Origin: Bacteroidales bacterium
Lineage (GTDB): Bacteria > Bacteroidota > Bacteroidia > Bacteroidales > UBA932
DNA: 64,000 nt
Assembly (NCBI GenBank): GCA_015060455.1
Contig: SUYM01000018.1
Coordinates: 1-64,000, forward strand
Direction of reading: 5' to 3'
Position numbers and translations under genes: made by a program
In this document: positions 17,251-53,418 of the stretch, piece after piece
Layout: every line of letters begins with the position of its first letter
Numbering within the stretch: the first letter of the stretch is position 1
The notes under the pieces: model-generated
Databases searched by the model: none
What the model saw: the letters and a program-made list of their open reading frames with translations, nothing else
Told to the model about the DNA's origin: nothing

Positions 17251-20200
17251 TTAATACTGACTCATATCCGTGATCTCAAACGGCTTGGCAATGGCATTGC
17301 GGGCCGCCTGAAGAGCGATCGGAGCATTTGCATCAGTAACAGGTGTCGTTCCTGTTGCATTATCTGGGAAACGATAGGTGTTACCGTCAAGCTTGACTCC
17401 TGTAAGCGGAGTGATGACGGTCTCAAACACAGTACATGAAGCGCCATAGCGGGCAAGACCAAGATCCATGTGATAGCCGTCACGGGTCAGGTCAAGGGCT
17501 GTGGTTGTACATGATGTCGTACGCAGATTCTGAAGCATTGTTCCTGTAGGGATGATGCCGTCAACGTCACACTCTGCCATAACCTCCTGCGCAAAAGCAG
17601 TGATGACAGGATACATGGCCAACTGCTCAGCCTTTGCCGTAGCCTTGTTCTTTGCCGCAAATTTCTCCGTATGTTGAGCGGCAGTCAGGCTTACTGACGA
17701 ATCGGTATTATAAAATGCCACAGGCCATGTAATCGCGCTTCGGCTGCCGAAACCGATCCTGTCCATGTTGTAATAAGCCTGAGACATGATGTAATATATC
17801 TTTGCATCGCCCTGGCTTTCCTTGATATGGTTGATTACGCCTGTCACATTCGATTTAGCGGTATCATTCCACACCCATGCGGCAGCATTTCCTGTATGCT
17901 CCTGAATGGTCACGACATCCCACTGACGGCTTTCACAGATGTCCTTAAGGCTCTTTCCTGTCACTGTTGTCCAACCTGTAGCACCGGCGTTGCAGGTATA
18001 GGCACTATAGTCCTTAGCCGTTGCCCAGGTGCTGTTATAGGCAGACATCAGACGACCGCCATAGTACATATGCACCATGTTCACGTTCTTGATGCCCGCA
18101 GCAGCAAGCATTCCAGGAAGATGCTTTACAGAGTCATCCGTGAAGGAGTTTCCGATGAAAAGGATATTGATGGCATCGGCTCCGTCGAAGATGATATTGG
18201 TAATTTTTGAAGCATTCGCAGCGGCATAGATACCTATATAATCCATGTAGTTGTCGTTGTTCAGGCTTACCATCTGATAGTTGCCGCCATTATATGTTCC
18301 GATTGTACCTCCGACCACGACATTGTCAACCTTGGCAAACTTGGAGAAATTTGCTGCTATCTGACCGAGGTAACGGCTCGTTGCTGAAGTCTCGTTCAAG
18401 ATATCACCGACAATCATTCCATAATTACCGCCACCGGTAATTTCCGATGAAGCATCAACGTCAGTCGATCCGCTTATCAAGCATACAAGACCGCCGCCCT
18501 GAGCATTACTTCCGCTCTGAGTAAGAACCAGATCACCGTGATTTTCACAATCCCTCATATAACAATAGTCAGACATGAAACAAGTGATCATTCCCGCTCT
18601 GATATTGGTACCGGTATTTGTCTGATTTCCGTAATTCTTACAAGATGACAGAGTGGTCTTCCTCTGCACGCTGCCGGCAATACCGGCTGTTCTTGACACC
18701 TCGGAAGTCATGTCACCATAATTGATACAGTTCGACACAGTATTACCGGTTGCATCATTATGTGTGTAGGCATGACCTATGATTCCGCCGACAATGACAC
18801 CGTTACCACCATTATTGGTGTTCGCGCCCCGCTTTGCGGTCATATCTCCATAGTTCACAAGATCGGCAAGCGTAGTGGACTCTCCGGACATCGAAATCAC
18901 GTAACCGGCAAAAGCAGCCATTGTGGTGCGTTTCTCATTAACTGCATTACCGTTGCAGATCATTGGAACATAGTTCACACAATTCCTGATGGTCGATTTA
19001 CGGCAGAATCCTGCAACTACACCGGCATCAATGACACCATTTCCTTTGAATGTCAGTTCACTGCTGTCTCCAGAAGGCGCTCCCATTACAAGGTTCTCGA
19101 CTGTCGCTCCATTGAGGAAGCCGAACAGACCATAGGTCGTTCCATCCACCGCAGAACTATATGTAGGAGTAAGTTTGATATTGCGGATACTATGACCCAT
19201 ACCGTTGAATTTTCCTGTAAATGCCTTACCTCCTGTCGGAGCATAGTTTGAAACCTTTGCATTTCCGATAGGCGTCCAAGTCTTTCCTGTCATATCGATG
19301 TCATTCAAAAGAACAACCACTCCGTTCTGACAGAACTTCGAGTAATCGCTTCCGGCATTCACAAGCGAAGCCAACTCCATCAGGTCGTCCGCAGTGCGGA
19401 TACCAGGAGCGTCAGGACCGTTGAAGACAAGGTTGGTGATCTTCGCGTCATTGGCATCGGAGCGGATACCGATATAATTTCTATAATTAGAGGTACTAAG
19501 AGTGACCATCTTATAGTTTCCGCCATTGTAAGAGCCAATGCTGCCATCAACAACAACGCCATCCACCTTCGACAACTTTGAGAAATTAGCAGCAATAAGA
19601 CCAAGATAATGCACTGTGGACTCTGAACTTGTCAGAATATCTCCGATGATCATTCCATAATTGCCACCACCGGTGATTTCTGCTGTCGTCGAGTTCATCA
19701 TACAAACCAATCCACCGCCTTGAACTTTATTGACATTGTTTTTCGTAAGCACCAAGTCTCCATGATTCTCACAGTCCTTCAACGCCGTATAATTTGCCAT
19801 TATAGCCGTAATCATTCCGATACGGACATCAGTTCCGGTGTTGACCTGATCACCATAGTTCTTGCAATTTTCCACTATTGTGTACTGATTTGCAGCAGAT
19901 ACGATACCACACGAACGAGCAACAGAAGACTCTATGTTTCCATAATTAACACAATTGCTTATATGATTTCGTGTTGTGCTTATAGTCGTCGTACCATTTG
20001 CAAGACCTGCTATTCCGGCAGCCATCACAGACGCTGCTCCATTCGTTGTATTGCTACCGCCTGCAGCCTTGATTGAGCCATAGTTGACAAGGTTCTCAAG
20101 AGTACAGCCTGCTCCCTGATTTGCATATACAAATCCCGCGAATCCAGCCATTGTGACACGCTGTGCAGCTGTGCTTCCCGTTACATTCATAGGAACATAG

Positions 20201-21531
20201 TTGACACAGTTGCGTATTGTAGAAGACATCATTGCTCCTGCAACCACTCCCACATCAAGACTGTCGGCAGCACTGAATGTCAGTTCACTGGCATCCCCCT
20301 CTGCAGCACCGACCGTAAGGTTCTCTACAGTCGCTCCGTCAAGAATACCGAAAAGGCCATATACATTATTGTCTGCAGTAATCTCCGCAGACATTTTGAG
20401 ATTCAGAATGCTCTTGCCACGGCCATCGAAATATCCTTTGAAAGCCGGCCCAGAATAATGTGATGTATGATTGTCTGTTGCGGTTACCGAGCCATGGAAC
20501 TTACCGTTTCCGATAGGGGTCCAGTTCGTAACTCCAGTCATGTCGATATCGTCAAGAAGCACGATCTTGCCCTCGTCGTTCATATACTCGATAAGGCTTG
20601 AGCCGTTGTTGACTGCCGCAGCGAAGTCAACGAGATCCTGAGCGCAGCCGATACCACCTGAGAAGGCATACATCGCCTTTGCAAGATGCTGTACTGAATA
20701 CCTGCCGTCAGACTCGCTGAATGTGGTGATACCTGACTTATAGATATTCTTTACAAGTTCGCTTCCGTCCTCAAGAGTAAGTGTAACCTTGAGACCCTTG
20801 CTTGAAGTGAAACGTCCGACAGGGAACTTGATCACCTGAGCCACACGTGCATCTGCCTGATCCGGGAAATTGAGAGTGAGGACATTGCCGGTCTGGAGTG
20901 TCTCGAGAGCGAGAGTCGAGGCGTCAACAACACCCGAGCAAGTGATATATCCCTCAAATTCGCTGCCCTCGGCAGGCTCTATCTTGAGGGTCTTCATAGG
21001 AGAAGTCATCTGGCTTCCCGCAGGATCGATACGAAGTTCGATCACTGAGAAGATATTCTCGAAGTGCATGTTTATGACACCATTGTCCAATGTCTCAGCA
21101 TTTGTATATCCGACCAGCGGAGCGCAAGCGGGATTCTTCTGAGCAAGGTCGAAAAACTCGATATCCCTTTCAGCAGCGATACCCACAGTACCGTCCTCCG
21201 CACTCAATGCTTCATAGTACGCCACCAGACCTGTGCCATCATAGTCTGTGATACCGGCAGTACTTGTAAAATAAGTCTGCTTGCCGTCCTCTGAAGGAGT
21301 GCCTGCCACATATTCGTAAGCATCTCCGTTGTAGAGGACTGTAATCCTGTCACCTGCCGTCCAGGTGCTCTTTCCTTCGTTGATGTCAGTCTTTGTCATC
21401 GGAGCACAATCTGCCGAAATGACAAGATACTTCGATACAGGAACCACAGTCGAGCCTTCCGGTTCGATTTCGCGGGTACAGCCCACAAGGGCCGCAGCAA
21501 CCGCCATAAGTGAGAATAAAATCTTTTTCAT
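17251..21531 (-). CDS. Lipoprotein: fimbrillin-like N-domain + two GLUG/NYG-repeat modules + C-terminal DUF4886 (SGNH-like)
   Basis: LVGCTREIEPEG lipobox; TKTDINEGKSTWTAGDRITVLYNG; repeated CVNYGDM / GGGNYGMIVGDI coils; NILFIGNSFTDDSVKHLPGML...RDGYHMDLGLARYG. Confidence 0.85.
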   Translation of the reverse strand: MKKILFSLMAVAAALVGCTREIEPEGSTVVPVSKYLVISADCAPMTKTDINEGKSTWTAGDRITVLYNGDAYEYVAGTPSEDGKQTYFTSTAGITDYDGTGLVAYYEALSAEDGTVGIAAERDIEFFDLAQKNPACAPLVGYTNAETLDNGVINMHFENIFSVIELRIDPAGSQMTSPMKTLKIEPAEGSEFEGYITCSGVVDASTLALETLQTGNVLTLNFPDQADARVAQVIKFPVGRFTSSKGLKVTLTLEDGSELVKNIYKSGITTFSESDGRYSVQHLAKAMYAFSGGIGCAQDLVDFAAAVNNGSSLIEYMNDEGKIVLLDDIDMTGVTNWTPIGNGKFHGSVTATDNHTSHYSGPAFKGYFDGRGKSILNLKMSAEITADNNVYGLFGILDGATVENLTVGAAEGDASELTFSAADSLDVGVVAGAMMSSTIRNCVNYVPMNVTGSTAAQRVTMAGFAGFVYANQGAGCTLENLVNYGSIKAAGGSNTTNGAASVMAAGIAGLANGTTTISTTRNHISNCVNYGNIESSVARSCGIVSAANQYTIVENCKNYGDQVNTGTDVRIGMITAIMANYTALKDCENHGDLVLTKNNVNKVQGGGLVCMMNSTTAEITGGGNYGMIIGDILTSSESTVHYLGLIAANFSKLSKVDGVVVDGSIGSYNGGNYKMVTLSTSNYRNYIGIRSDANDAKITNLVFNGPDAPGIRTADDLMELASLVNAGSDYSKFCQNGVVVLLNDIDMTGKTWTPIGNAKVSNYAPTGGKAFTGKFNGMGHSIRNIKLTPTYSSAVDGTTYGLFGFLNGATVENLVMGAPSGDSSELTFKGNGVIDAGVVAGFCRKSTIRNCVNYVPMICNGNAVNEKRTTMAAFAGYVISMSGESTTLADLVNYGDMTAKRGANTNNGGNGVIVGGIIGHAYTHNDATGNTVSNCINYGDMTSEVSRTAGIAGSVQRKTTLSSCKNYGNQTNTGTNIRAGMITCFMSDYCYMRDCENHGDLVLTQSGSNAQGGGLVCLISGSTDVDASSEITGGGNYGMIVGDILNETSATSRYLGQIAANFSKFAKVDNVVVGGTIGTYNGGNYQMVSLNNDNYMDYIGIYAAANASKITNIIFDGADAINILFIGNSFTDDSVKHLPGMLAAAGIKNVNMVHMYYGGRLMSAYNSTWATAKDYSAYTCNAGATGWTTVTGKSLKDICESRQWDVVTIQEHTGNAAAWVWNDTAKSNVTGVINHIKESQGDAKIYYIMSQAYYNMDRIGFGSRSAITWPVAFYNTDSSVSLTAAQHTEKFAAKNKATAKAEQLAMYPVITAFAQEVMAECDVDGIIPTGTMLQNLRTTSCTTTALDLTRDGYHMDLGLARYGASCTVFETVITPLTGVKLDGNTYRFPDNATGTTPVTDANAPIALQAARNAIAKPFEITDMSQY

Positions 21532-21536
21532 AGCAG

Positions 21537-21659
21537 TTACTCCTTTTCTGTTTCGTCATAAATAAAATCCAGGTCACCGATTCCGTTGACCGAGCCGCAA
21601 AGAATGCCGGCGCTTTCCAATTCTGTCACTGCCAAAGCAGGAGACTCATACTTTTTCAT
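21537..21659 (-). CDS. 40-aa mini-ORF upstream of giant lipoprotein
   Basis: Reverse complement reads MKKYESPALAVTELESAGILCGSVNGIGDLDFIYDETEKE*; stop lies 5 nt before the next start codon; homologous to 53287-53418. Absent from supplied ORF track (below length cutoff). Confidence 0.7.
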   Translation of the reverse strand: MKKYESPALAVTELESAGILCGSVNGIGDLDFIYDETEKE

Positions 21660-21695: not shown

Positions 21696-24600
21696 TTATC
21701 TGGTTATATAGTATTTCGATTCGTTTCCAAGCACTGTATCTTCCGCAACTGCGCGCAGTTTTGCCGTATATGTAGGGTTCAGTCCGCAGTCTGCCGGCGT
21801 TGAGCCGAACGGCTCACCGTAGAGAACAAGATAGTTCACGCAAGCCTTCAGATACGCTCCGTAAGGTCCCTGGTGCTTGACATCCGAGTGATAAAGTTCT
21901 ATCTCAGGGTGTCTTTCCCTCGCAAGTTTGAATGCCTGACCGATAGGAGACACCGGAGAGCCTATGCTTTTGGCAATGGACAGAGAGCCGGACAGAAGCA
22001 GGTTGTCGAAGTTCTCGAAACTGGTAAATCCGCCATAATTCCCATTAGACCCGGCAAATGACCATGTGTTTTCAAGGATGACATTACATGTCGGCACCTT
22101 TGCAAGAATCTTGTCCTTAAGTGCCTGTGAATTGGTCAGAGTCGCCGCATTGGCTGTCTTGTCTGAAGCATAATTTGCATGCGCTGAGCTCTGATCCTGA
22201 ATGAAAGCATAATGGAACTTACCCATGTTGATAGCTACTGTAGTCAGCCAAAGTTCCAGATGATTTGCAAAAGTCTGGCTACCTTTGAAGTGTCCGAACA
22301 TCTCGATCTTATGACCTTCGGCGAAAGCGATCTCGACAAGTTTCCACGACGGGTCGTGATAGTGTGAGAAAGAGTTGCCGATCGCCAGAACCCTCTTGGT
22401 GTCTTTCGGATCCTTGTTGCCCATTATGTTCACATAACTGCCGGTAAAGCCCATTGGAGCAAGAGAGCAAGTTCCGTCCTCAGAGGTCAGGCTCAGTTTT
22501 CCGCCGCTGCATGAAACATCGACAGGCACGCGAAGACGGATCTTCATCGAAGAATTGATGAACTCATCCTCGAACTTGAGGACATGAGTGAAGGTAGAAT
22601 GCTGATATTTTCCTCCGTTCTGCACGCCGAACACCGCGAAAGAATATTTCTTGGTGTTGTCCTCAGAAACTGTCCTCAACAAGGAGGCCTGCTTCCACTG
22701 TCCCTGGTCATAATATTCAAGGATATAATACTTCGGCGAATCCTGTCCGCCGGCAATAGTAGCATTGAACAGGACATATGTACCGGCCGGAACGTAATCT
22801 ACAGGAAGAGTCCACAGCCAGTAGTCGTCCTTGAGAAGATTTCCTACGTATGGCCTTGCAGATGTTCCTGACCCGTCGACAGCCATACAGTTGAAGGCCT
22901 TCGAAGCATTAGCCTCGGCACGGACCACTGAGATTGTCGCCGGAGACGAATATGTGCAAGGTATCCTGTTATAATTCACCCACTCGCTTTCATATAACTG
23001 CCTTGAGGTAGCGGAAAACTGCCACAGAGCAGGGAAGGTAGGAGCGGCTTGAACAACCTGATCGCCCCATCTTATGTTAAGCGGCGTCACATAGATGGCA
23101 GAGGCGTTATGAACGCCGATATAGTCGAAATAGTTATAAGCATTTGTCCCGGTCATCTTGTAAGAGCCGTCGTTGTATGTTCCAAGGTCTCCCTGACATA
23201 CGCAGTCTCTGAAAATTGACTCATTGTTGCACTGACCGAAGAATGTTCCCTTGTATGAAGCGTGATCTGTGATGACATCGCCATAGTTCTCCACTCCGCT
23301 GAACAGACAATCGTCTCCGCTTACAAGACATACCACGCCTGCTGCGGCTCCCTTGGTGGTGCAGACCACATCACCATGGTTCACCGTATTGAGTATCTGA
23401 CACTCTGCGCCTGTAATGCAAGTCACAGCACCGATACGTGCAGAGCCGGAAGTCGCATAACTGTTGGTTATATTTCCTTTGTTCTCGCAGTCCTGAACAG
23501 TTGTATATCTGTTGCAGGCTGCCACAATTGAAGAGGTTCTGCCTGTTGCAGAAGTTATGTTTCCGTTATTCTCGCAGCCGCTGACAACCACCCGGAGTTT
23601 GCTGTCCGCATGGTTGGTACCGAAGCCCAGAATACCGGAAATATGAGCAGCGTCACCGTTGTTCTTGACGTTTCCGCCACCGGCAGCAGCAATAGCGGCA
23701 TTGTTTGTAATTCTGCTGATTTCCACCTCTGAATTCTGCGCAAATGCAAGTCCGACTACACCCATGGTGGTCCTCTTTTCGGCCGCGCCTGAATTGAACT
23801 GCATAGGAGCATTGTTCACGACATTCCTTACCGCCGCATCATACACAAGACCGGCAACAACGCCAGCCTGAACATCCGTCGTCGCATTGACTGTGAGTGA
23901 AGATGTCACATCCATCACAAGGTTCTCCACTACGGCACCGCTTCCAAGAGTTCCGAAGAGGCCGTAAGTCGAGCCGGCAACAGAACTTGTGCAGACCATA
24001 TCGAGATTCTTGATTGTGTGGCCGTTGCCGTTGAAATGACCTGTAAATGCTGTTCCTGTCACCGTAAGTTTATTGGACGAAAGTGTATGGGTCGCATTTC
24101 CGATAGGTGTCCATGTCTTTCCGGACATATCGATATCTGCAAGCAGGGTAACTACACCCGACATATTCATAAACTTGGAATAATCCTTTTCGGAATTTAC
24201 AAGAGTCGCAAATTCAACGAGTTCGTCAGCCGTCCTGATGCCGACCGCATCAGGTCCGATATAGATAATATTGGAAATCTTCTCTTTATCCGCAGCATCC
24301 TGGCTTGAACCGATGTAGGTCATATAGTTGGATGAATTTATTTCTATCTGCTGATGCTCTCCGCCATTATAACTGTACATCGAACCACCTGCAACCACAT
24401 CGGACATGCTCTTCAGATCTGAGAACCAAGCGACAAGAAGGCCGCGTCCGTTGGTGCAGTCACTCACTATCTTTCCATAGTTGCCACCGCCGGTAAGAGA
24501 AACCTGAGAAGAATTCATAATTCCGACAAGTCCACCGACCCTTGAATATTTACCTGACACCTGAGTCGCCGTCATTATCGCATTACCATGGTTCTCACAA

Positions 24601-26342
24601 TCGGTCACAGTGCTGTTTCCAGCCATCGCAGAAGTCACCATGCCCACTCGCGTATTATTGTAGGAATTGGTCTGATTGCCATAATTTATGCAGGCAATCA
24701 TATCCGTACGATGATTGGTGGTCGCAACTATTCCGGAAGCACGTTCCATATCAACAGTCATGTCACCATAATTGACACAGCCGCTTATGGTGTTCCTGCC
24801 GGAAGTCGCCGAGCCGTTCGCCGCACCGGCAATACCGCCGGCCATTACAGAAGTTGCACCGCCGGCACTTTGATCACGCTGTCCTGAAACAGCACCATAA
24901 TTTATCAGATTCTCCAGTACGCTGCCTGTCTCGGCATTATAGACAAAACCTGCAAACGCACCCATTGTTGTTCTTTTTCCCGAAACTGAATTACCCTTTA
25001 CATTCATCGGGATATAATTCGTACAGTTGCGGATGACCGAACCATAGCAGACTCCGGAGAGAATACCGGCATCGGAAGTTGCATCAGCCGAAAACTCAAA
25101 AGAACTGTTATCATTTTCCGGTGCACCCAAAACGATATTTTCTACGACCGCCCCATCTAGAATACCGAACAAGCCATACACTGCTCCTTCCGCAGTCAGG
25201 TCTTTTGAAAGTTTGAGATTCCTGATCGAGAATCCCTGACCGTCGAACTTGCCTTTGAATGAAGAACCGGAGTAAGAGCACACATTATCACCTGTCATCT
25301 GACCGGTAAAAGTACCGTTTCCTATCGGAGTCCAAGAAGTCACACCGGACATATCGATATCATCCAGAAGCACCACCTTGCCCTCGTCGTTCATATACTC
25401 AAGAAAACTGGCGCCGCTGTTTACGGCAGCCGCGAAATCAACAAGGTCCCCAGCAGTGGAGATACCACCGGAAAATGGGAAAATCGCCCTTGCAAGGTGC
25501 TGAACGGCATATCTTCCGTTATTTTCAACATAGGTAGAGAGACCTGTCTTATAGACATTCTTCTGATAGACCGTACCGTCCTCAAGGGTAAGAGTAAGTT
25601 TAAGACCCTTGGACGAAGTGAAACGGCCCACAGGGAACTTGAGAGTCTGAGGTTCACGAAGTTCTGTGCCGTCCGGAAGATTAAGAGTCAGGCTGTTGCC
25701 TGTCGAAGATGTTTCAAGGGCAAGAGTGGAAGCATCCACTGTCGCCGAACAAGTAAGATAACCCGAAAAATCACTGCCGTCAGCAGGTTCCACCTTAAGA
25801 GTCCTGGCAGGACTGTTCACATGATAGCCGGCCGCATCGATACGAAGTTCCACAACGGAAAATATGTTCTGGAAATACATGTTCAGAACGCCGTCTTCCA
25901 TAGTCTCGGCAGATGTCGATCCCACAAGTGGAGCACAGGCAGAATTGACCTGTCCTTCCTTCTGGAAAGCGATATTCCTTTCGGCTGCAATGCCGACAGT
26001 CCCGTCTTCTGCGCTGAGAGCCTGATAATATGCCACCAGACCTGTGCCATCATAACTGGTTATACCGGCTGAACTGGTGAAATAAGTCTGCTCGCCGTCC
26101 TCTGAAGGAGTGCCTGCGACGTATTCGTAAGCATCACCGTTGTAGAGGACTGTGATCTTGTCGCCCGCTTCCCAGGTGCTCTTACCCTCGTTGATGTCTG
26201 TCTTGGTCATCGGAGTACAGTCGGCCTTGATGACAAGGTACTTTGACACAGGAACCATCGTCGAGCCTTCCGGTTCGATCTCGCGGGCGCAACCGCAAAG
26301 GATGGCGGCAACGGCCAGAATGGAGAACAATAATCTCTTCAT
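21696..26342 (-). CDS. Giant lipoprotein: fimbrillin-like N-domain + two GLUG/NYG modules + unassigned domain + C-terminal SGNH/DUF4886-like domain
   Basis: LCGCAREIEPEG lipobox; start reset from 26498 to MKRLLFSILAVAA; C-terminal KRVLAIGNSFSHYHDPSWKLVE...ELYHSDVKHQGPYGAYL. Confidence 0.82.
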   Translation of the reverse strand: MKRLLFSILAVAAILCGCAREIEPEGSTMVPVSKYLVIKADCTPMTKTDINEGKSTWEAGDKITVLYNGDAYEYVAGTPSEDGEQTYFTSSAGITSYDGTGLVAYYQALSAEDGTVGIAAERNIAFQKEGQVNSACAPLVGSTSAETMEDGVLNMYFQNIFSVVELRIDAAGYHVNSPARTLKVEPADGSDFSGYLTCSATVDASTLALETSSTGNSLTLNLPDGTELREPQTLKFPVGRFTSSKGLKLTLTLEDGTVYQKNVYKTGLSTYVENNGRYAVQHLARAIFPFSGGISTAGDLVDFAAAVNSGASFLEYMNDEGKVVLLDDIDMSGVTSWTPIGNGTFTGQMTGDNVCSYSGSSFKGKFDGQGFSIRNLKLSKDLTAEGAVYGLFGILDGAVVENIVLGAPENDNSSFEFSADATSDAGILSGVCYGSVIRNCTNYIPMNVKGNSVSGKRTTMGAFAGFVYNAETGSVLENLINYGAVSGQRDQSAGGATSVMAGGIAGAANGSATSGRNTISGCVNYGDMTVDMERASGIVATTNHRTDMIACINYGNQTNSYNNTRVGMVTSAMAGNSTVTDCENHGNAIMTATQVSGKYSRVGGLVGIMNSSQVSLTGGGNYGKIVSDCTNGRGLLVAWFSDLKSMSDVVAGGSMYSYNGGEHQQIEINSSNYMTYIGSSQDAADKEKISNIIYIGPDAVGIRTADELVEFATLVNSEKDYSKFMNMSGVVTLLADIDMSGKTWTPIGNATHTLSSNKLTVTGTAFTGHFNGNGHTIKNLDMVCTSSVAGSTYGLFGTLGSGAVVENLVMDVTSSLTVNATTDVQAGVVAGLVYDAAVRNVVNNAPMQFNSGAAEKRTTMGVVGLAFAQNSEVEISRITNNAAIAAAGGGNVKNNGDAAHISGILGFGTNHADSKLRVVVSGCENNGNITSATGRTSSIVAACNRYTTVQDCENKGNITNSYATSGSARIGAVTCITGAECQILNTVNHGDVVCTTKGAAAGVVCLVSGDDCLFSGVENYGDVITDHASYKGTFFGQCNNESIFRDCVCQGDLGTYNDGSYKMTGTNAYNYFDYIGVHNASAIYVTPLNIRWGDQVVQAAPTFPALWQFSATSRQLYESEWVNYNRIPCTYSSPATISVVRAEANASKAFNCMAVDGSGTSARPYVGNLLKDDYWLWTLPVDYVPAGTYVLFNATIAGGQDSPKYYILEYYDQGQWKQASLLRTVSEDNTKKYSFAVFGVQNGGKYQHSTFTHVLKFEDEFINSSMKIRLRVPVDVSCSGGKLSLTSEDGTCSLAPMGFTGSYVNIMGNKDPKDTKRVLAIGNSFSHYHDPSWKLVEIAFAEGHKIEMFGHFKGSQTFANHLELWLTTVAINMGKFHYAFIQDQSSAHANYASDKTANAATLTNSQALKDKILAKVPTCNVILENTWSFAGSNGNYGGFTSFENFDNLLLSGSLSIAKSIGSPVSPIGQAFKLARERHPEIELYHSDVKHQGPYGAYLKACVNYLVLYGEPFGSTPADCGLNPTYTAKLRAVAEDTVLGNESKYYITR

Positions 26343-26368: not shown

Positions 26369-26513
26369 AGATCCTTCGACTCCACTTCGTTCCGCTCAGG
26401 ATGACAAAAGGTCGCTTCGTTCCGCTCAGGATGACAGTGTGGCACTTCGTTCCGTTCAGGATGACAGTGTGGCACTTCGTTCCGTTCAGGATGATCACAT
26501 TGTCATGTTGAGC
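26369..26513. repeat. Short tandem array, core CACTTCGTTCCGTTCAGGATGACAGTGTGG
   Basis: Four near copies; last two nearly identical. Same GGATGACAG core as the 9801-10043 array. Confidence 0.9.
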
Positions 26514-26617: not shown

Positions 26618-28696
26618 TCAGTTGGTCGGAGCAGTTCCGAACTTGATGTTAGCCTGAGTGGCATTAGTAGCATCGGCGCCAATCTGACCGACATAGTTCC
26701 AATAGTTGGAAGATGTAAGTGCTGTTACCTGATAGGTTCCTCCATTATATTTGCCGAAAGAACCACCTGCGATACAGTTTGTAAAGGTTGCAGCCTTGTT
26801 GCAGCTTCCAAAGAATACTCCACAATAGGTCTTGGCAGTACGGTCGGTAATCACTCTACCGTAGTTTGCTACGTTCTCATATACATTTGAAGCATCATTT
26901 ACCAACGACACAATACCGGCCACAGCACCAGAGTTTGTTGATATCACATCACCATAATTGGTTGAGTTATAAATTGAGGAGCCGGCTCCTGTGATACACG
27001 TGATATTTCCGATACGACATGCTGCCCCTGCCGTCTCAGTCTTCTTACTGAATGTATTCTTGTTATTTCCGTAGTTTGTACAGCCGCGGATGACGGTGTA
27101 TCTGTTAGCTGCCGCTACGATACCGGAAGCACGTGCCGTTGCCGACTCAATGTTTCCTTTATTAATACAAGACTTGACCTCAACTGTCTTGGAACTGCTC
27201 GCATCATTTGTACCGAATGCCAGAACACCAGCCACCTGAATGGCTGCTGCGCCATTCTGATTAGAACCTCCGTCAGTAGCAGTAACATCGGCATTGTTAG
27301 TAACATTCTCGATTGTCACACCTGTGTTCTTCGCATTTGCAAAACCGACAACAGACATGGTAACCCTTGCACCACATGTTCCAGTAAAGTTCATCTTGGC
27401 ATTGTTGGTGATGTTACGGACTATCGCATCCTCTGCCAGACCCGCCACAACACCACAGTCTGTCGATGCTGTAACAGCGACATCAAGTGAACAAGTCGCA
27501 TCAAAAACAATGTTCTCGACAACTGCACCTTCTCCCAACGCACCGAAGAGTCCAAAGACACCTCCTGCAGTCGAATTGGTTGTCTTCATCTTGAAATTTT
27601 TGATCTTGTTGCCCTGTCCGTCAAAATATCCTGTGAACTGCTTGCCACTTGTACATGTCAACACGTTAGCGGCCCATGTAAATACAGATGAACCGATTGG
27701 CGTCCATGTAGTCACGCTCGACATATCAATATCCTGCAGCAACACGACCTTGCCTTCTGCATTCATCCACTTCGTATAATCTGCACCTGTATTCACAGCA
27801 TTTGCAAATGCAACCAGATCAGTGGCAGAAGAAATTCCACCAGGATTTGCAAAAGCATATACAGGTTTCGCCAAATGAATTGCAGAATACACTCCTGCAC
27901 TCGACTTCTTATATGAAGTAAGGCCGGTCTTGTAGATATTCTTCGTATAGGTACTGTTGTCATTTGTGGTCATCGTCAGTTTCAAACCGGAATTTGTGGT
28001 GAAACGACCCACAGGCACCTTGATGGTCATAGCCTCGGTCAAAGACGTGTTGGCTGGGAAGGTAAGTGTGATCTTGTTAGAAGTCGAAGTTGTCGTAACT
28101 TCACGAGTCTCAGCATTGACAGAACCCTTTCCTGCAAGATAACCGGTAAAGTCAGAAGCGTCGGCTGGCTCAACAGTCAGAGTCTTGGCCGGAGAAGTAA
28201 GTTCTCCCGCATCAACCCTGATTTCAAGTACAGAGAAGACATTCTCAAACACCATTGCAAGTTTACCTCCAGTCAAATTGCCAGTGTTTGGAACACCTAC
28301 AAGTGGAGCTTTTGAAGAATTTTCCTGAGTGCCGCTCTGGAACGTGAGCGTTGTTGCCGAAGGAACTTCAACTCCCCCTCCGTTTACGGCAGGATAATAA
28401 GCGACACACGACTTTGTCGCATCATAGGTAGTGATTCCGGCTGTACTTGTAAATGTGGTGGTAGCACCGGCCGTAGAAGCCGTATAAGTATATGAATTCC
28501 CGTCATATACGACAGTTATCTGATCTCCGGCTTCCCAAGATGTCGCACCATTTGTGACATCCGTCTTAGTTACGGGAGCCTGAGCCTCAATGACAAGATA
28601 TTCGGATGCGATGTCCTGAGCATTGTCAAGTTCTCGCTCACATCCGCACACAAGTGCGGACAGAGCGGCAAGCGTATATATAAATATTCTTTTCAT
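26618..28696 (-). CDS. Lipoprotein: fimbrillin-like N-domain + GLUG/NYG module, no C-terminal enzyme
   Basis: VCGCERELDNAQD lipobox; TKTDVTNGATSWEAGDQITVVYDG; CTNYGNNKNTFSKK, NSTNYGDVISTNSG coils; ends after the module. Confidence 0.82.
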   Translation of the reverse strand: MKRIFIYTLAALSALVCGCERELDNAQDIASEYLVIEAQAPVTKTDVTNGATSWEAGDQITVVYDGNSYTYTASTAGATTTFTSTAGITTYDATKSCVAYYPAVNGGGVEVPSATTLTFQSGTQENSSKAPLVGVPNTGNLTGGKLAMVFENVFSVLEIRVDAGELTSPAKTLTVEPADASDFTGYLAGKGSVNAETREVTTTSTSNKITLTFPANTSLTEAMTIKVPVGRFTTNSGLKLTMTTNDNSTYTKNIYKTGLTSYKKSSAGVYSAIHLAKPVYAFANPGGISSATDLVAFANAVNTGADYTKWMNAEGKVVLLQDIDMSSVTTWTPIGSSVFTWAANVLTCTSGKQFTGYFDGQGNKIKNFKMKTTNSTAGGVFGLFGALGEGAVVENIVFDATCSLDVAVTASTDCGVVAGLAEDAIVRNITNNAKMNFTGTCGARVTMSVVGFANAKNTGVTIENVTNNADVTATDGGSNQNGAAAIQVAGVLAFGTNDASSSKTVEVKSCINKGNIESATARASGIVAAANRYTVIRGCTNYGNNKNTFSKKTETAGAACRIGNITCITGAGSSIYNSTNYGDVISTNSGAVAGIVSLVNDASNVYENVANYGRVITDRTAKTYCGVFFGSCNKAATFTNCIAGGSFGKYNGGTYQVTALTSSNYWNYVGQIGADATNATQANIKFGTAPTN

Positions 28697-49910: not shown

Positions 49911-52900
49911 TTACAAGTATGATTTTACCTGCTCCCATATCTGATCTGCCATTTCTTTCATTCCGGCTACATTCGGATGGACGCTGTCGTAAGTGCTTGC
50001 CGAGCGATCAGCAAACACCACCTCTGCGTAATGAATATTGTAGTGGTTGCAGACATCACGGATTACCTGCGCATACGCTGAATATTGGCTGTCCATGACG
50101 CAGTCGCCGATGATGCAGAAAATCTTGGCATCAGGATACTTTCCCTCCAGCAGTCTGATGAGTTTGTCGTAAGCCTGAGCGAACTGGTATGTGTCAAGGT
50201 CGTCTGTTGCGATTGTGAAGTCCAGTGTTCCCACAGGAAGATTGAAACTCCACGAGTCGTTTGTTCCGCCGTTGATGAAAATCACGTCAGGGTTGCCCAG
50301 ATCTGCATATCTGTTGAGGAAACCATATCCAGGATAACCGTTTTTAGTGGTATTCTGGACACATGTTGCAGTATGTGATGAGTTAGCCTCAAGCAATGCA
50401 TTGGTCATCTTTCCGTAGATAAGCTGATACCAGTATGTCTGGGTGACACTTGTAAAGTCGGTGTAAGAACTCTTCGGATACTGGTAGTTGCTTGGGAAGA
50501 GGGTGTATCCCTGATAAGTGGTGATCGAGTCGCCTATGAGGGACACGCGTGTCTTTGTTGATGTGGCGGTGCTGCTTGCAATCGGGCATCCGTAGATTAC
50601 AGGATAACCGTTTGTGCCCATAACCCATTCCTCTGCACGTACGTCGAATATCATGGCGGTGTTATACTCGTCTGCTCCCGCGTTGAGTGCATCAAGGAAG
50701 CAAGGGTACGCAGTGCCGGTTGACGGCATCGACACCGCACCTGTGTTCTTCAACTGCTCGTCGGTGAGGGACTGCTCGGCTTTTGTATAAGTAAAGCTGC
50801 CACTTGATGCTCCAGCTTTAAAGCCGTCTAACCAGTATGCGTTCACGATGGTGCCGCTGCTTCCGGTTTCGCCGCTCACACCTCGAAGCCAGCCATAAAT
50901 CGATCCTCGCGAAGAAGCAGTTGCCTCGCCACCACTTAAGAATGCTGATGACGGAGCAGGACAATAGCAGTTGCGGATTGTAATTGTTTGTGCATATCCT
51001 GCTATTCCGGCAATATTGGCTCCTCCGGAAGTTGAAACCTTGGTAGGGAACGATGCACAGTTGACGATTGCCGTATTGGAGAGGCTTGTTGCGCTGAACT
51101 GCCCGGCAATACCACCTACGCCACCGGCAGAGTTGTTATTTGTGAGCTCACCTCCATAATAGATACAATTGGCTATAAGCACATCGGTAGTGTTTACAAA
51201 ACCTGCAATACCGCCTACTCGTCCACCTGATCCTCCCGTATTGGCAACGTTACAGCTTGCACTGCACTTGTTCACGATTCCCTTACCGGTGGCGCATCCT
51301 ATAACACCACCGACTTGACCACTTGAGGTCGATGTGACAGAACCACCTGAGACATTACAGTTCTCCACCTTGGAAGTCTTCGCATCCGTTCCTGACCACA
51401 TATCTCCGAGAATGCCTCCGGCATTGCTTGCAGCAGTCTCCACTGCGACACCTGACGTATTACATTGAGAGATAAGACCACCCTTGTTGTAAACGCCCAC
51501 GATGCCGCCCACATTGGCCGCCGTACCCTTGACCGTACCGCCGGTCACACTGCAACCGGTCACAGTACCGGCCGCCACGATCTGTCCGGTGACTCCACCG
51601 ACACTCTTTGCTCCGCTGACAGACGGATTGGTCAGTGTACACATCTTGACTGTACCGCCGGCAATGTTTCCTACCACACCGCCGACAAGATTTACGCCCT
51701 TTACGGTTGCGGCTACTGTACATGAGGTAATTCCTCCACCTGAAATCAGTCCGGCAATTCCACCTACCTGATTATTTGTTCCGGTGACCGTACCTTCAAC
51801 CGAACATTCCGTCACAAAGCAATTAGCTCCATCCATGCGTCCTGTGATGCCACCGACATTGACATTTCCGGCACTGACTGTTCCTGAATAAGAACATCCC
51901 TTGACTGTTCCGACCTGAATTTTGCCGATGATGCCGCCTACAGCATCACCCGAACTATACACTGAACCATTTGTCACATGGCAGTTCTCGATGAGTGCCG
52001 TAGAGGTGTTCTGGGCACAGCCGGCGATGGTGCCGACATTCCATGTGCTGGCGTTGATTGTCACCTTGTCGAACTTCATGTTCTTGATGTGAGCAGCGCC
52101 GTCGAGATAGCCGAAGAATCCCTGAGCCTTGTTCGAGTTCACGTTTGCAATGACGATATTCTCGATCTTATATCCCTTGCCGTCGTATTTTCCGCAGAAG
52201 AAACTGTATGGCGCGGTCGCGTTGGTGTTTCCGATGCTGCTGAACGTGGCTCCGTCAAAATCGATATTCGCAATCTGCTCATAGTATGCGGTCCTGAACG
52301 GCAGATACTCCTCATCCATGCTGGCAACGTAAGTCGAGAGGGTGTTAAGGTCATCAACGCTTCCTATAAGATAAGGATCCGCCTCCGTGCCTCGACCGCC
52401 GCTGAAATGGCTCGGAACGAAATTGTACAGAGCCCTTGCAATATGTTTTGCAGAGAACTTTCCCTCCGCCTCCTGATATGTCGTGAGTCCGCTCTGCCAT
52501 ACGTTCCTTTCATAGGCAGTCCCGTCTTCAAGAGTCAGGGTGAGTTTAAGTCCGGCACTTGACGAAAATCGTCCAACCGGGATCTTGAGCGTCTGAGCCT
52601 GAGTGGCATCTGTCTCGGCAGGAAGAGTGCGGACAAGGGTGTTTCCTGTGCCGTTTTCTGCCGCCGCAAGCGCCAATGTAGAAGGATCGACAGTGCCTCT
52701 GAAAGCAAGACAGCCCTCAAACTCCGATCCTTCCGCCGGCTCCAAGGTCAACGACTTGATGGGACTTGGCGACGGCTTGCCTGCCGGGTCTATCCTGAGT
52801 TCCAATGTCGAGAATATGTTGTCGAATCTTATGCGGAGCGCTCCGTCCTCCACCTCGCCCGACACCGGTGTTCCCACCAATGGTGCGCAGGCAGAATTGT

Positions 52901-53282
52901 TCTGCGTCTCAGCCTGCCATCCGATGGTCGCCTCCGCCTCGACTCCGACGATTCCCTCTGCCGCGTCTATCGCATTGTAATATGCCGTGAGGGCGCTTCC
53001 GTCATAGTCGGCGATACCGTTTTCACTGACAAAATATACGGCTGCCCCGTCCGAAGACGCCGCATACTCATATACATTACCTTTATAGACAACCTCAATG
53101 ACATCGTCCTTCTCCCATGTGCTGAGTCCCTCATTGATGTCTGTCTTTGTCTGTGCGCAATCCGCCTTGATGACAAGGTACTTGGACGACGGTACAGGCT
53201 TGTCCTGAGGATTTTCCATCTCCTTTGTACAACTTATGACACCGACAACGGCCGCCATAAGCGCAATAAACATTTTCCTCAT
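49911..53282 (-). CDS. Giant lipoprotein: fimbrillin-like N-domain + canonical GLUG repeats + C-terminal SGNH/GDSL hydrolase
   Basis: GVISCTKEMENPQ lipobox; VGGITGRMDGANCFVTECSVEGTVTGTNNQVGGIAG; VSLIGDSITTYQGY...DSVHPNVAGMKEMADQIW; start at MRKMFIALMAAVV. Confidence 0.87.
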   Translation of the reverse strand: MRKMFIALMAAVVGVISCTKEMENPQDKPVPSSKYLVIKADCAQTKTDINEGLSTWEKDDVIEVVYKGNVYEYAASSDGAAVYFVSENGIADYDGSALTAYYNAIDAAEGIVGVEAEATIGWQAETQNNSACAPLVGTPVSGEVEDGALRIRFDNIFSTLELRIDPAGKPSPSPIKSLTLEPAEGSEFEGCLAFRGTVDPSTLALAAAENGTGNTLVRTLPAETDATQAQTLKIPVGRFSSSAGLKLTLTLEDGTAYERNVWQSGLTTYQEAEGKFSAKHIARALYNFVPSHFSGGRGTEADPYLIGSVDDLNTLSTYVASMDEEYLPFRTAYYEQIANIDFDGATFSSIGNTNATAPYSFFCGKYDGKGYKIENIVIANVNSNKAQGFFGYLDGAAHIKNMKFDKVTINASTWNVGTIAGCAQNTSTALIENCHVTNGSVYSSGDAVGGIIGKIQVGTVKGCSYSGTVSAGNVNVGGITGRMDGANCFVTECSVEGTVTGTNNQVGGIAGLISGGGITSCTVAATVKGVNLVGGVVGNIAGGTVKMCTLTNPSVSGAKSVGGVTGQIVAAGTVTGCSVTGGTVKGTAANVGGIVGVYNKGGLISQCNTSGVAVETAASNAGGILGDMWSGTDAKTSKVENCNVSGGSVTSTSSGQVGGVIGCATGKGIVNKCSASCNVANTGGSGGRVGGIAGFVNTTDVLIANCIYYGGELTNNNSAGGVGGIAGQFSATSLSNTAIVNCASFPTKVSTSGGANIAGIAGYAQTITIRNCYCPAPSSAFLSGGEATASSRGSIYGWLRGVSGETGSSGTIVNAYWLDGFKAGASSGSFTYTKAEQSLTDEQLKNTGAVSMPSTGTAYPCFLDALNAGADEYNTAMIFDVRAEEWVMGTNGYPVIYGCPIASSTATSTKTRVSLIGDSITTYQGYTLFPSNYQYPKSSYTDFTSVTQTYWYQLIYGKMTNALLEANSSHTATCVQNTTKNGYPGYGFLNRYADLGNPDVIFINGGTNDSWSFNLPVGTLDFTIATDDLDTYQFAQAYDKLIRLLEGKYPDAKIFCIIGDCVMDSQYSAYAQVIRDVCNHYNIHYAEVVFADRSASTYDSVHPNVAGMKEMADQIWEQVKSYL

Positions 53283-53286
53283 AGTC

Positions 53287-53418
53287 TTATTCCTTAATGG
53301 TTTCGTCAAATTCAAAAAAGATGTCGGTGATATCCGAATCCAGGGATTCGCAGAGCACACCTTCGCTCAACAAGTCCACGCAAGCGATATGGGGACTCAT
53401 GTAATTCTTTGTATCCAT
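53287..53418 (-). CDS. 43-aa mini-ORF upstream of giant lipoprotein
   Basis: Reverse complement reads MDTKNYMSPHIACVDLLSEGVLCESLDSDITDIFFEFDETIKE*; stop lies 4 nt before the next start; homologous to 21537-21659. Confidence 0.7.
   Translation of the reverse strand: MDTKNYMSPHIACVDLLSEGVLCESLDSDITDIFFEFDETIKE

Follow-up and report, generated by a model that had tools for sequence, protein, structure and literature searches.

Mini-ORFs preceding fimbrillin-like lipoprotein genes in Bacteroidales as probable RiPP precursors of an LPP-like pathway with dispersed substrates

The window analyzed here, a stretch of 64,000 nucleotides from the genome of a Bacteroidales bacterium, contains two very short minus-strand ORFs, each located immediately ahead of the gene of a large lipoprotein. 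Three roles had been proposed for the encoded peptides, namely a cytoplasmic partner, a translational-coupling leader, and a precursor peptide that might be processed at its conserved LC.S. The question raised by this locus is which of these roles is consistent with the sequence of the peptides, their relatives and the enzymes encoded in the same and related genomes.

The mini-ORFs of the window

The two mini-ORFs, their partners and the neighboring lipoprotein genes are located as follows:

17251–21531, minus strand: partner of copy 1, a 1426-aa lipoprotein (MKKILFSLMAVAAALVGC) with a fimbrillin-like N-domain and a C-terminal DUF4886
21537–21659, minus strand: mini-peptide copy 1, a candidate precursor of 40 aa (MKKYESPALAVTELESAGILCGSVNGIGDLDFIYDETEKE)
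21696–26342, minus strand: paralogous fimbrillin-N-domain lipoprotein gene immediately upstream of copy 1, ending 36 nt ahead of the peptide ATG
26618–28696, minus strand: further fimbrillin-N-domain lipoprotein of the same gene run, without a mini-peptide
49911–53282, minus strand: partner of copy 2, a 1123-aa lipoprotein (MRKMFIALMAAVVGVISC) with a fimbrillin-like N-domain, GLUG repeats and a C-terminal GDSL-like lipase
53287–53418, minus strand: mini-peptide copy 2, a candidate precursor of 43 aa (MDTKNYMSPHIACVDLLSEGVLCESLDSDITDIFFEFDETIKE)

Copy 1 carries the leader motif Y4-ESP...G18-I-L-C-G-S23, followed by the acidic tail VNGIGDLDFIYDETEKE, and its TAA stop codon lies 5 nt ahead of the partner ATG at 21531. 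Copy 2 carries the motif Y6-MSP...G20-V-L-C-E-S25 and the acidic tail LDSDITDIFFEFDETIKE, and 4 nt separate its end from the partner ATG at 53282. The two peptides share 20 identical positions (about 50% identity), far above chance, which confirms the original prediction of alignable mini-ORFs at these places. Scans of 47 mini-peptides against Pfam and NCBIfam yielded scattered chance matches only. The likeness of copy 1 to DUF5972 (PF19397) consists of its N-terminal KKYExP; with 11.3 bits (E=0.27), the match lies far under the 22.6 bits set as threshold for that family. Interpretation of the LC pair as a lipobox was ruled out by the lack of a signal peptide and the presence of Leu or Ile preceding the Cys.

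GLUG-type repeats had also been described in the partner of copy 1; Pfam detects none here. No mini-peptide is detectable ahead of the paralogous lipoprotein gene at 21696–26342. Directly upstream of this gene, the minus strand contains tandem near-identical units "gtcatcctgaacggaacgaagtgccacact" (26380–26490). Since the listed GTG start at 26498 runs through these units, the true start is probably an ATG near 26342.

Size, motif and neighborhood of the peptide family

A single-sequence protein search of the source genome detected copy 2 (E=3e-4) plus four weaker matches, all four of them true members of the family, and protein search with the mini-peptide revealed that 11 further genomes of the genus also encode relatives. 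With a profile refined in two rounds (A2, then A3), about 29 copies were found on many contigs of the source genome, and the peptide was present in 46 of the 61 genomes of the genus, with up to 29 copies per genome. Inspection of ten weak profile matches in the source genome (E 2e-5 to 0.5) identified nine short ORFs with the motif directly 5′ of a lipoprotein gene and one spurious match. Outside the order, the phylum-wide profile search produced spurious frames only. Related YxxP peptides, several per genome, occur in G466 (loci L098, L104, L108, L110, and L112) and G647 (L099); they end in DW-x-x-[FY]E or RNSLWGDDE and often have no lipoprotein gene next to them.

The family consensus is Y-x-[STA]-P-x(10)-G-[VI]-[LI]-C-x-S with rigid spacing, followed by an acidic tail of 13–32 residues with a mean net charge of −4. 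All 47 aligned members retain the Y and P of the YxxP motif. The codons of conserved residues have an entropy of 1.46 bits at the third position vs. 0.34 and 0.35 bits at the first and second, with AGY as well as TCN codons in use for the conserved Ser. The variation of the third position and the mixed Ser codons indicate that selection acts on the protein, as had been suggested from the two copies of the window.

For all 28 copies of the source genome with readable downstream sequence, the gap to the following lipoprotein gene is −7 to 31 nt, and for the 29th copy the contig end cuts right after a lipoprotein start. A lipoprotein is likewise the next gene for 50 of 50 peptides with a profile E<1e-6. 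The 28 partners have in common the lipoprotein Cys and a fimbrillin-like N-domain with nearly invariant W57 and D61. The remainder of these proteins varies, comprising GLUG repeats (four partners), DUF4886 (two partners), GDSL lipase, NHL, GDPD, NAGPA, and other domains. The search for further homologues beside fimbrillin-like genes, proposed with the original prediction, was therefore successful, and the constant neighbor is a fimbrillin-like lipoprotein rather than the "giant GLUG/DUF4886" protein envisaged there. Partners resemble the known fimbrillin-like lipoproteins (Mfa_like_1, PF13149) in having a lipoprotein signal and a fimbrillin-like N-domain; PF13149 is reached at E≤0.01 by just one of the 28, and the N-domain is thus at best a remote relative of this family. 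Search of genome contigs with the N-domain of the copy 1 lipoprotein gave no matches.

The peptide-lipoprotein pairs duplicate as units. Co-evolution of the peptide tail with the lipoprotein N-domain was considered and rejected, because its signal came mainly from recent duplicates and was gone once close pairs were removed; the claim is accordingly limited to pairs duplicating as units.

Candidate maturation genes and their linkage to the peptides

The YxxP motif is the leader motif bound by RiPP recognition elements (RREs) of lasso peptides and of linear polyphosphorylated peptides (LPPs; PMC13381572). LPPs were reported in May 2026 in Bacillota, with the pathway shown experimentally; in Paenibacillus alginolyticus the genes are lppA-K-B-S-D-N, the kinase phosphorylates core Ser 3, and the peptidase cuts the leader off after Thr −1 (PMC13381572).

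The source genome encodes one discrete PqqD-like RRE (C17:28640-28831), scoring 46.7 bits with PF05402 against a cut-off of 23.4. Its structural model is a wHTH with strands E7-12, E15-20, and E31-34 and three helices. The top PDB matches of this model, 5v1u, 5v1v, and 6jx3, are the lasso RREs TbiB1 and TfuB1, whose structures include YxxP leaders, and 6jx3 is the sole sequence match of the RRE (E=8e-5). At least one discrete PqqD-like RRE is encoded in 52 of the 61 genomes of the genus.

The genes for a candidate kinase, a candidate peptidase and an MsbA-like ABC transporter are located together on contig C42, the transporter gene following that of the kinase, and the RRE gene lies apart on contig C17. 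The best NCBIfam match of the kinase is HprK-related kinase A (TIGR04352, E=5.7e-6, under the curated cut-off). Its model (pLDDT 95) matches PDB structures of PEPCK (E=3.5e-8) and HPr kinase (E=3.8e-5), which form one fold superfamily, and its P-loop SGTGKST is nearly invariant. Archaeal signal peptidase I is the best match of the peptidase, with a score under the NCBIfam curated cut-off, and residues S30, H67, and D82 are invariant in eight aligned peptidases.

The maturation genes mostly occur as single copies in a genome, at one or two sites. The RRE neighborhoods of the genus show a recurrent order of genes for a ~295-aa kinase, a ~145-aa peptidase (SpI), the RRE and a ~545-aa ABC transporter, and in G016 an NTP_transf_5 protein (NTase) is encoded between the RRE and the transporter. 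All five LPP core gene types are contiguous in locus L160 of the same genus and in L223 of another family. Among 80 Bacteroidales loci fetched with the kinase, which span Prevotella, Paraprevotella, Muribaculaceae, Bacteroides, and others, the kinase is present in 80, the peptidase in 74, the RRE in 68, and an ABC gene in 55.

The roughly 29 precursors of the source genome are dispersed, none of them beside maturation genes, and the RRE neighborhoods of the genus, when searched for peptides, mostly contained none. A broadened profile applied to 100 loci detected 23 peptide ORFs at E≤0.1 vs. none in reversed decoys, the decoy count being the control since some operon-linked peptides helped to build this profile. 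In L234 the peptide heads an operon of the order peptide-kinase-SpI-RRE-NTase-ABC, and in L223 a peptide and lipoprotein pair lies just 5′ of kinase-SpI-RRE-NTase-ABC. The peptide is located between the RRE and the kinase in L239, precedes the kinase or the NTase in L253, L285, L289 (two peptides in tandem), and L302, and lies downstream of the ABC gene in L287. The order is peptide-lipoprotein-kinase in L255 and L261, and NTase-peptide-lipoprotein in L309, L319, and L321. The operon-linked lipoproteins of L309, L287, L319, L230, L232, L223, and L321 have the N-domain of the window partners (E 2e-19 to 7e-7, negatives scoring above 0.4); for those of L255 and L261 the match fell short of significance.

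Peptides and enzymes also tend to occur in the same genomes, in counts that are blurred by MAG incompleteness and genome kinship. Outside the genus (293 genomes), a close kinase is encoded in four of the five peptide-positive genomes vs. 10 of the 288 others (p=1.6e-5, kinship uncorrected). Within the genus, the peptide is missing from 5 of the 7 genomes without RRE, kinase and peptidase vs. 10 of the 54 others (p=0.008, kinship uncorrected). In G032 (MAG 91% complete), encoding about 29 peptides and an RRE, the kinase and the peptidase were not found, and eight kinase-bearing genomes of the genus had no peptide at the threshold used.

Several other arrangements were observed around these genes. 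In L173 (G078:C9) and L174 (G081:C32), peptide-lipoprotein pairs are divergent from genes for a sensor histidine kinase and a LuxR-type regulator, and after the pairs comes an HprK-like kinase gene of a longer type (~370 aa), an arrangement kept between two species. Two radical SAM proteins of the SPASM type are encoded next to the RRE-kinase-peptidase operon of L159 (G081:C3), and a YxxP peptide and a second RRE lie at a distance of about 7 kb; this locus may be a hybrid RiPP cluster. In L165 (G032:C5), an RRE is fused to the N terminus of a radical SAM protein. Locus L147 (G013:C1:480000-497000) of the same genus, comprising genes for an RRE, an HprK-like kinase, two proteins resembling asparagine synthetase, and one sulfotransferase-like and one YcaO-like protein, is probably a lasso or other RiPP cluster. 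Genes for a UDP-sugar dehydrogenase and an epimerase are located just downstream of the kinase and ABC genes of the source genome (L175:13056-15347, G000:C42); LPP clusters of Bacillota are likewise located in polysaccharide loci.

Proposed pathway and alternative roles

Most probably, the mini-ORFs encode RiPP precursors of an LPP-like pathway with dispersed substrates. Judging from the motif and the fold, the YxxP segment would bind the single discrete PqqD-like RRE of the genome. The kinase of the HprK/PEPCK fold may then phosphorylate the invariant Ser of G-[VI]-[LI]-C-x-S, and the archaeal-type signal-peptidase-like enzyme with its Ser, His and Asp would remove the leader by a cut at this motif or immediately ahead of it. 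The C-x-S sequence is compatible with a signal-peptidase −3/−1 site. In 22 of 59 tails there is no Ser besides the conserved one, which favors a predicted cleavage before the motif, with the conserved Ser as the phosphate acceptor. Where present, the NTP_transf_5 enzyme could modify the product further, and the short acidic core would be exported by the MsbA-like ABC transporter. The location of dispersed precursors directly before fimbrillin-like lipoprotein genes suggests that the exported peptide and the co-encoded surface lipoprotein may act together. More tentatively, about 29 different small phosphopeptides might be modified and exported by one trans-acting system, each for the lipoprotein of the next gene as a ligand, cap, anchor, or assembly factor, and a Bacteroidales cell would in this way furnish its whole repertoire of fimbrillin-like surface proteins with cognate modified peptides, a possibility that we regard as somewhat doubtful.

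The gene set shared with LPPs consists of a discrete RRE, an HprK-like kinase, an archaeal-type Ser/His/Asp signal peptidase, an NTP transferase and an MsbA-like exporter, and both kinds of precursors carry YxxP in their N-terminal segment, contain a conserved Ser and vary toward the C terminus. The catalytic residues S29, H68, and D93 of LppS correspond to S30, H67, and D82 of the peptidase described here, the two sets being equated by motif and order. However, LPPs occur in Bacillota with one to three precursors in the cluster, whereas here about 29 precursors are scattered over the genome of a member of Bacteroidota, and the pairing of precursors with fimbrillin-like lipoproteins is a feature of the present system. 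Likewise, LPPs have FETxxS, in contrast to the EG[VI][LI]CxS with a conserved Cys and the acidic tails of 13–32 aa found here. The full LPP consensus YxxPxVLxHQxIxFETxxS is not matched, the Ser being at P+16 vs. P+15; with the Ser one residue further from the Pro, the system is named LPP-like rather than classified as LPP.

Lasso peptides of the type with split B1 and a paeninodin-type kinase have in common with this system the YxxP leader, the discrete RRE and, as tailoring enzymes, the HprK-like kinase and a nucleotidyltransferase. A signal-peptidase-like enzyme here replaces the B2 protease, and no macrolactam synthetase is among the recurrent operon genes. Membership in the lasso class was ruled out by the missing transglutaminase-like B2 protease (PF13471), for which the source genome gave no match at E≤10 (assembly 83% complete). 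The double-Gly leader motif of the GG-leader, PCAT-exported RiPPs of Bacteroidales (PMC10352776) was absent from the family members inspected by eye. A comparable logic, with one maturation system serving many precursor genes, is known from prochlorosins, where ProcM matures many dispersed ProcA precursors. Their enzymes, leader and modification are unrelated, and to our knowledge prochlorosin precursors are not paired with lipoproteins.

The precursor role is strongly favored among the three proposed ones by the YxxP motif, the matching machinery genes and the operon-linked homologues. An unmodified cytoplasmic partner or chaperone, for example one holding the fimbrillin-like lipoprotein before secretion, would agree with the steady pairing with one N-domain family in the genus and in some operon-linked cases and with the duplication of pairs as units. 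It would leave unexplained the YxxP motif, the conserved Ser and the fact that peptides are linked to genes for the RRE, kinase, peptidase and exporter, and several operon-linked peptides lack an adjoining lipoprotein; such a role is very improbable. Translation of the peptide and the lipoprotein is likely coupled, given the stop-to-start gaps of the 28 readable copies. That the peptide itself is functionless and its short ORF a regulatory leader bringing ribosomes to the lipoprotein start is, however, very improbable, because the amino acids are conserved with third codon positions free and Ser codon families mixed, and the copies in L234, L285, L302, and L253 precede a kinase or nucleotidyltransferase gene with no lipoprotein. 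In addition, two fimbrillin-like lipoproteins of the window have no mini-peptide. Coupling as the main function is thus not upheld. The least probable alternative is a RiPP precursor of different chemistry, in which radical SAM or lasso-type machinery uses the same RRE: many RiPP classes use RREs, the radical SAM proteins of G081 and G032 would suit it and the conserved Cys is a possible thioether or other acceptor, but the lasso B2 family is unmatched and the partners recurring across the order are the kinase, SpI, RRE, and ABC genes.

No earlier report of such a system in Bacteroidota was found in the literature searched, whose coverage was incomplete. The precursor reading provides a testable function for a large overlooked class of genes of 40–60 residues in gut Bacteroidales, and would extend to another phylum a RiPP pathway that in the same literature is described solely in Bacillota. 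Its genomic logic is different, with dozens of precursors dispersed over the genome, every one linked to a surface lipoprotein, and a single maturation locus serving them all. Since these precursors are located away from the enzymes, ordinary genome mining beside the enzymes would miss such peptides. If the precursor reading is true, the many fimbrillin-like lipoproteins in these bacteria may work with modified peptides.
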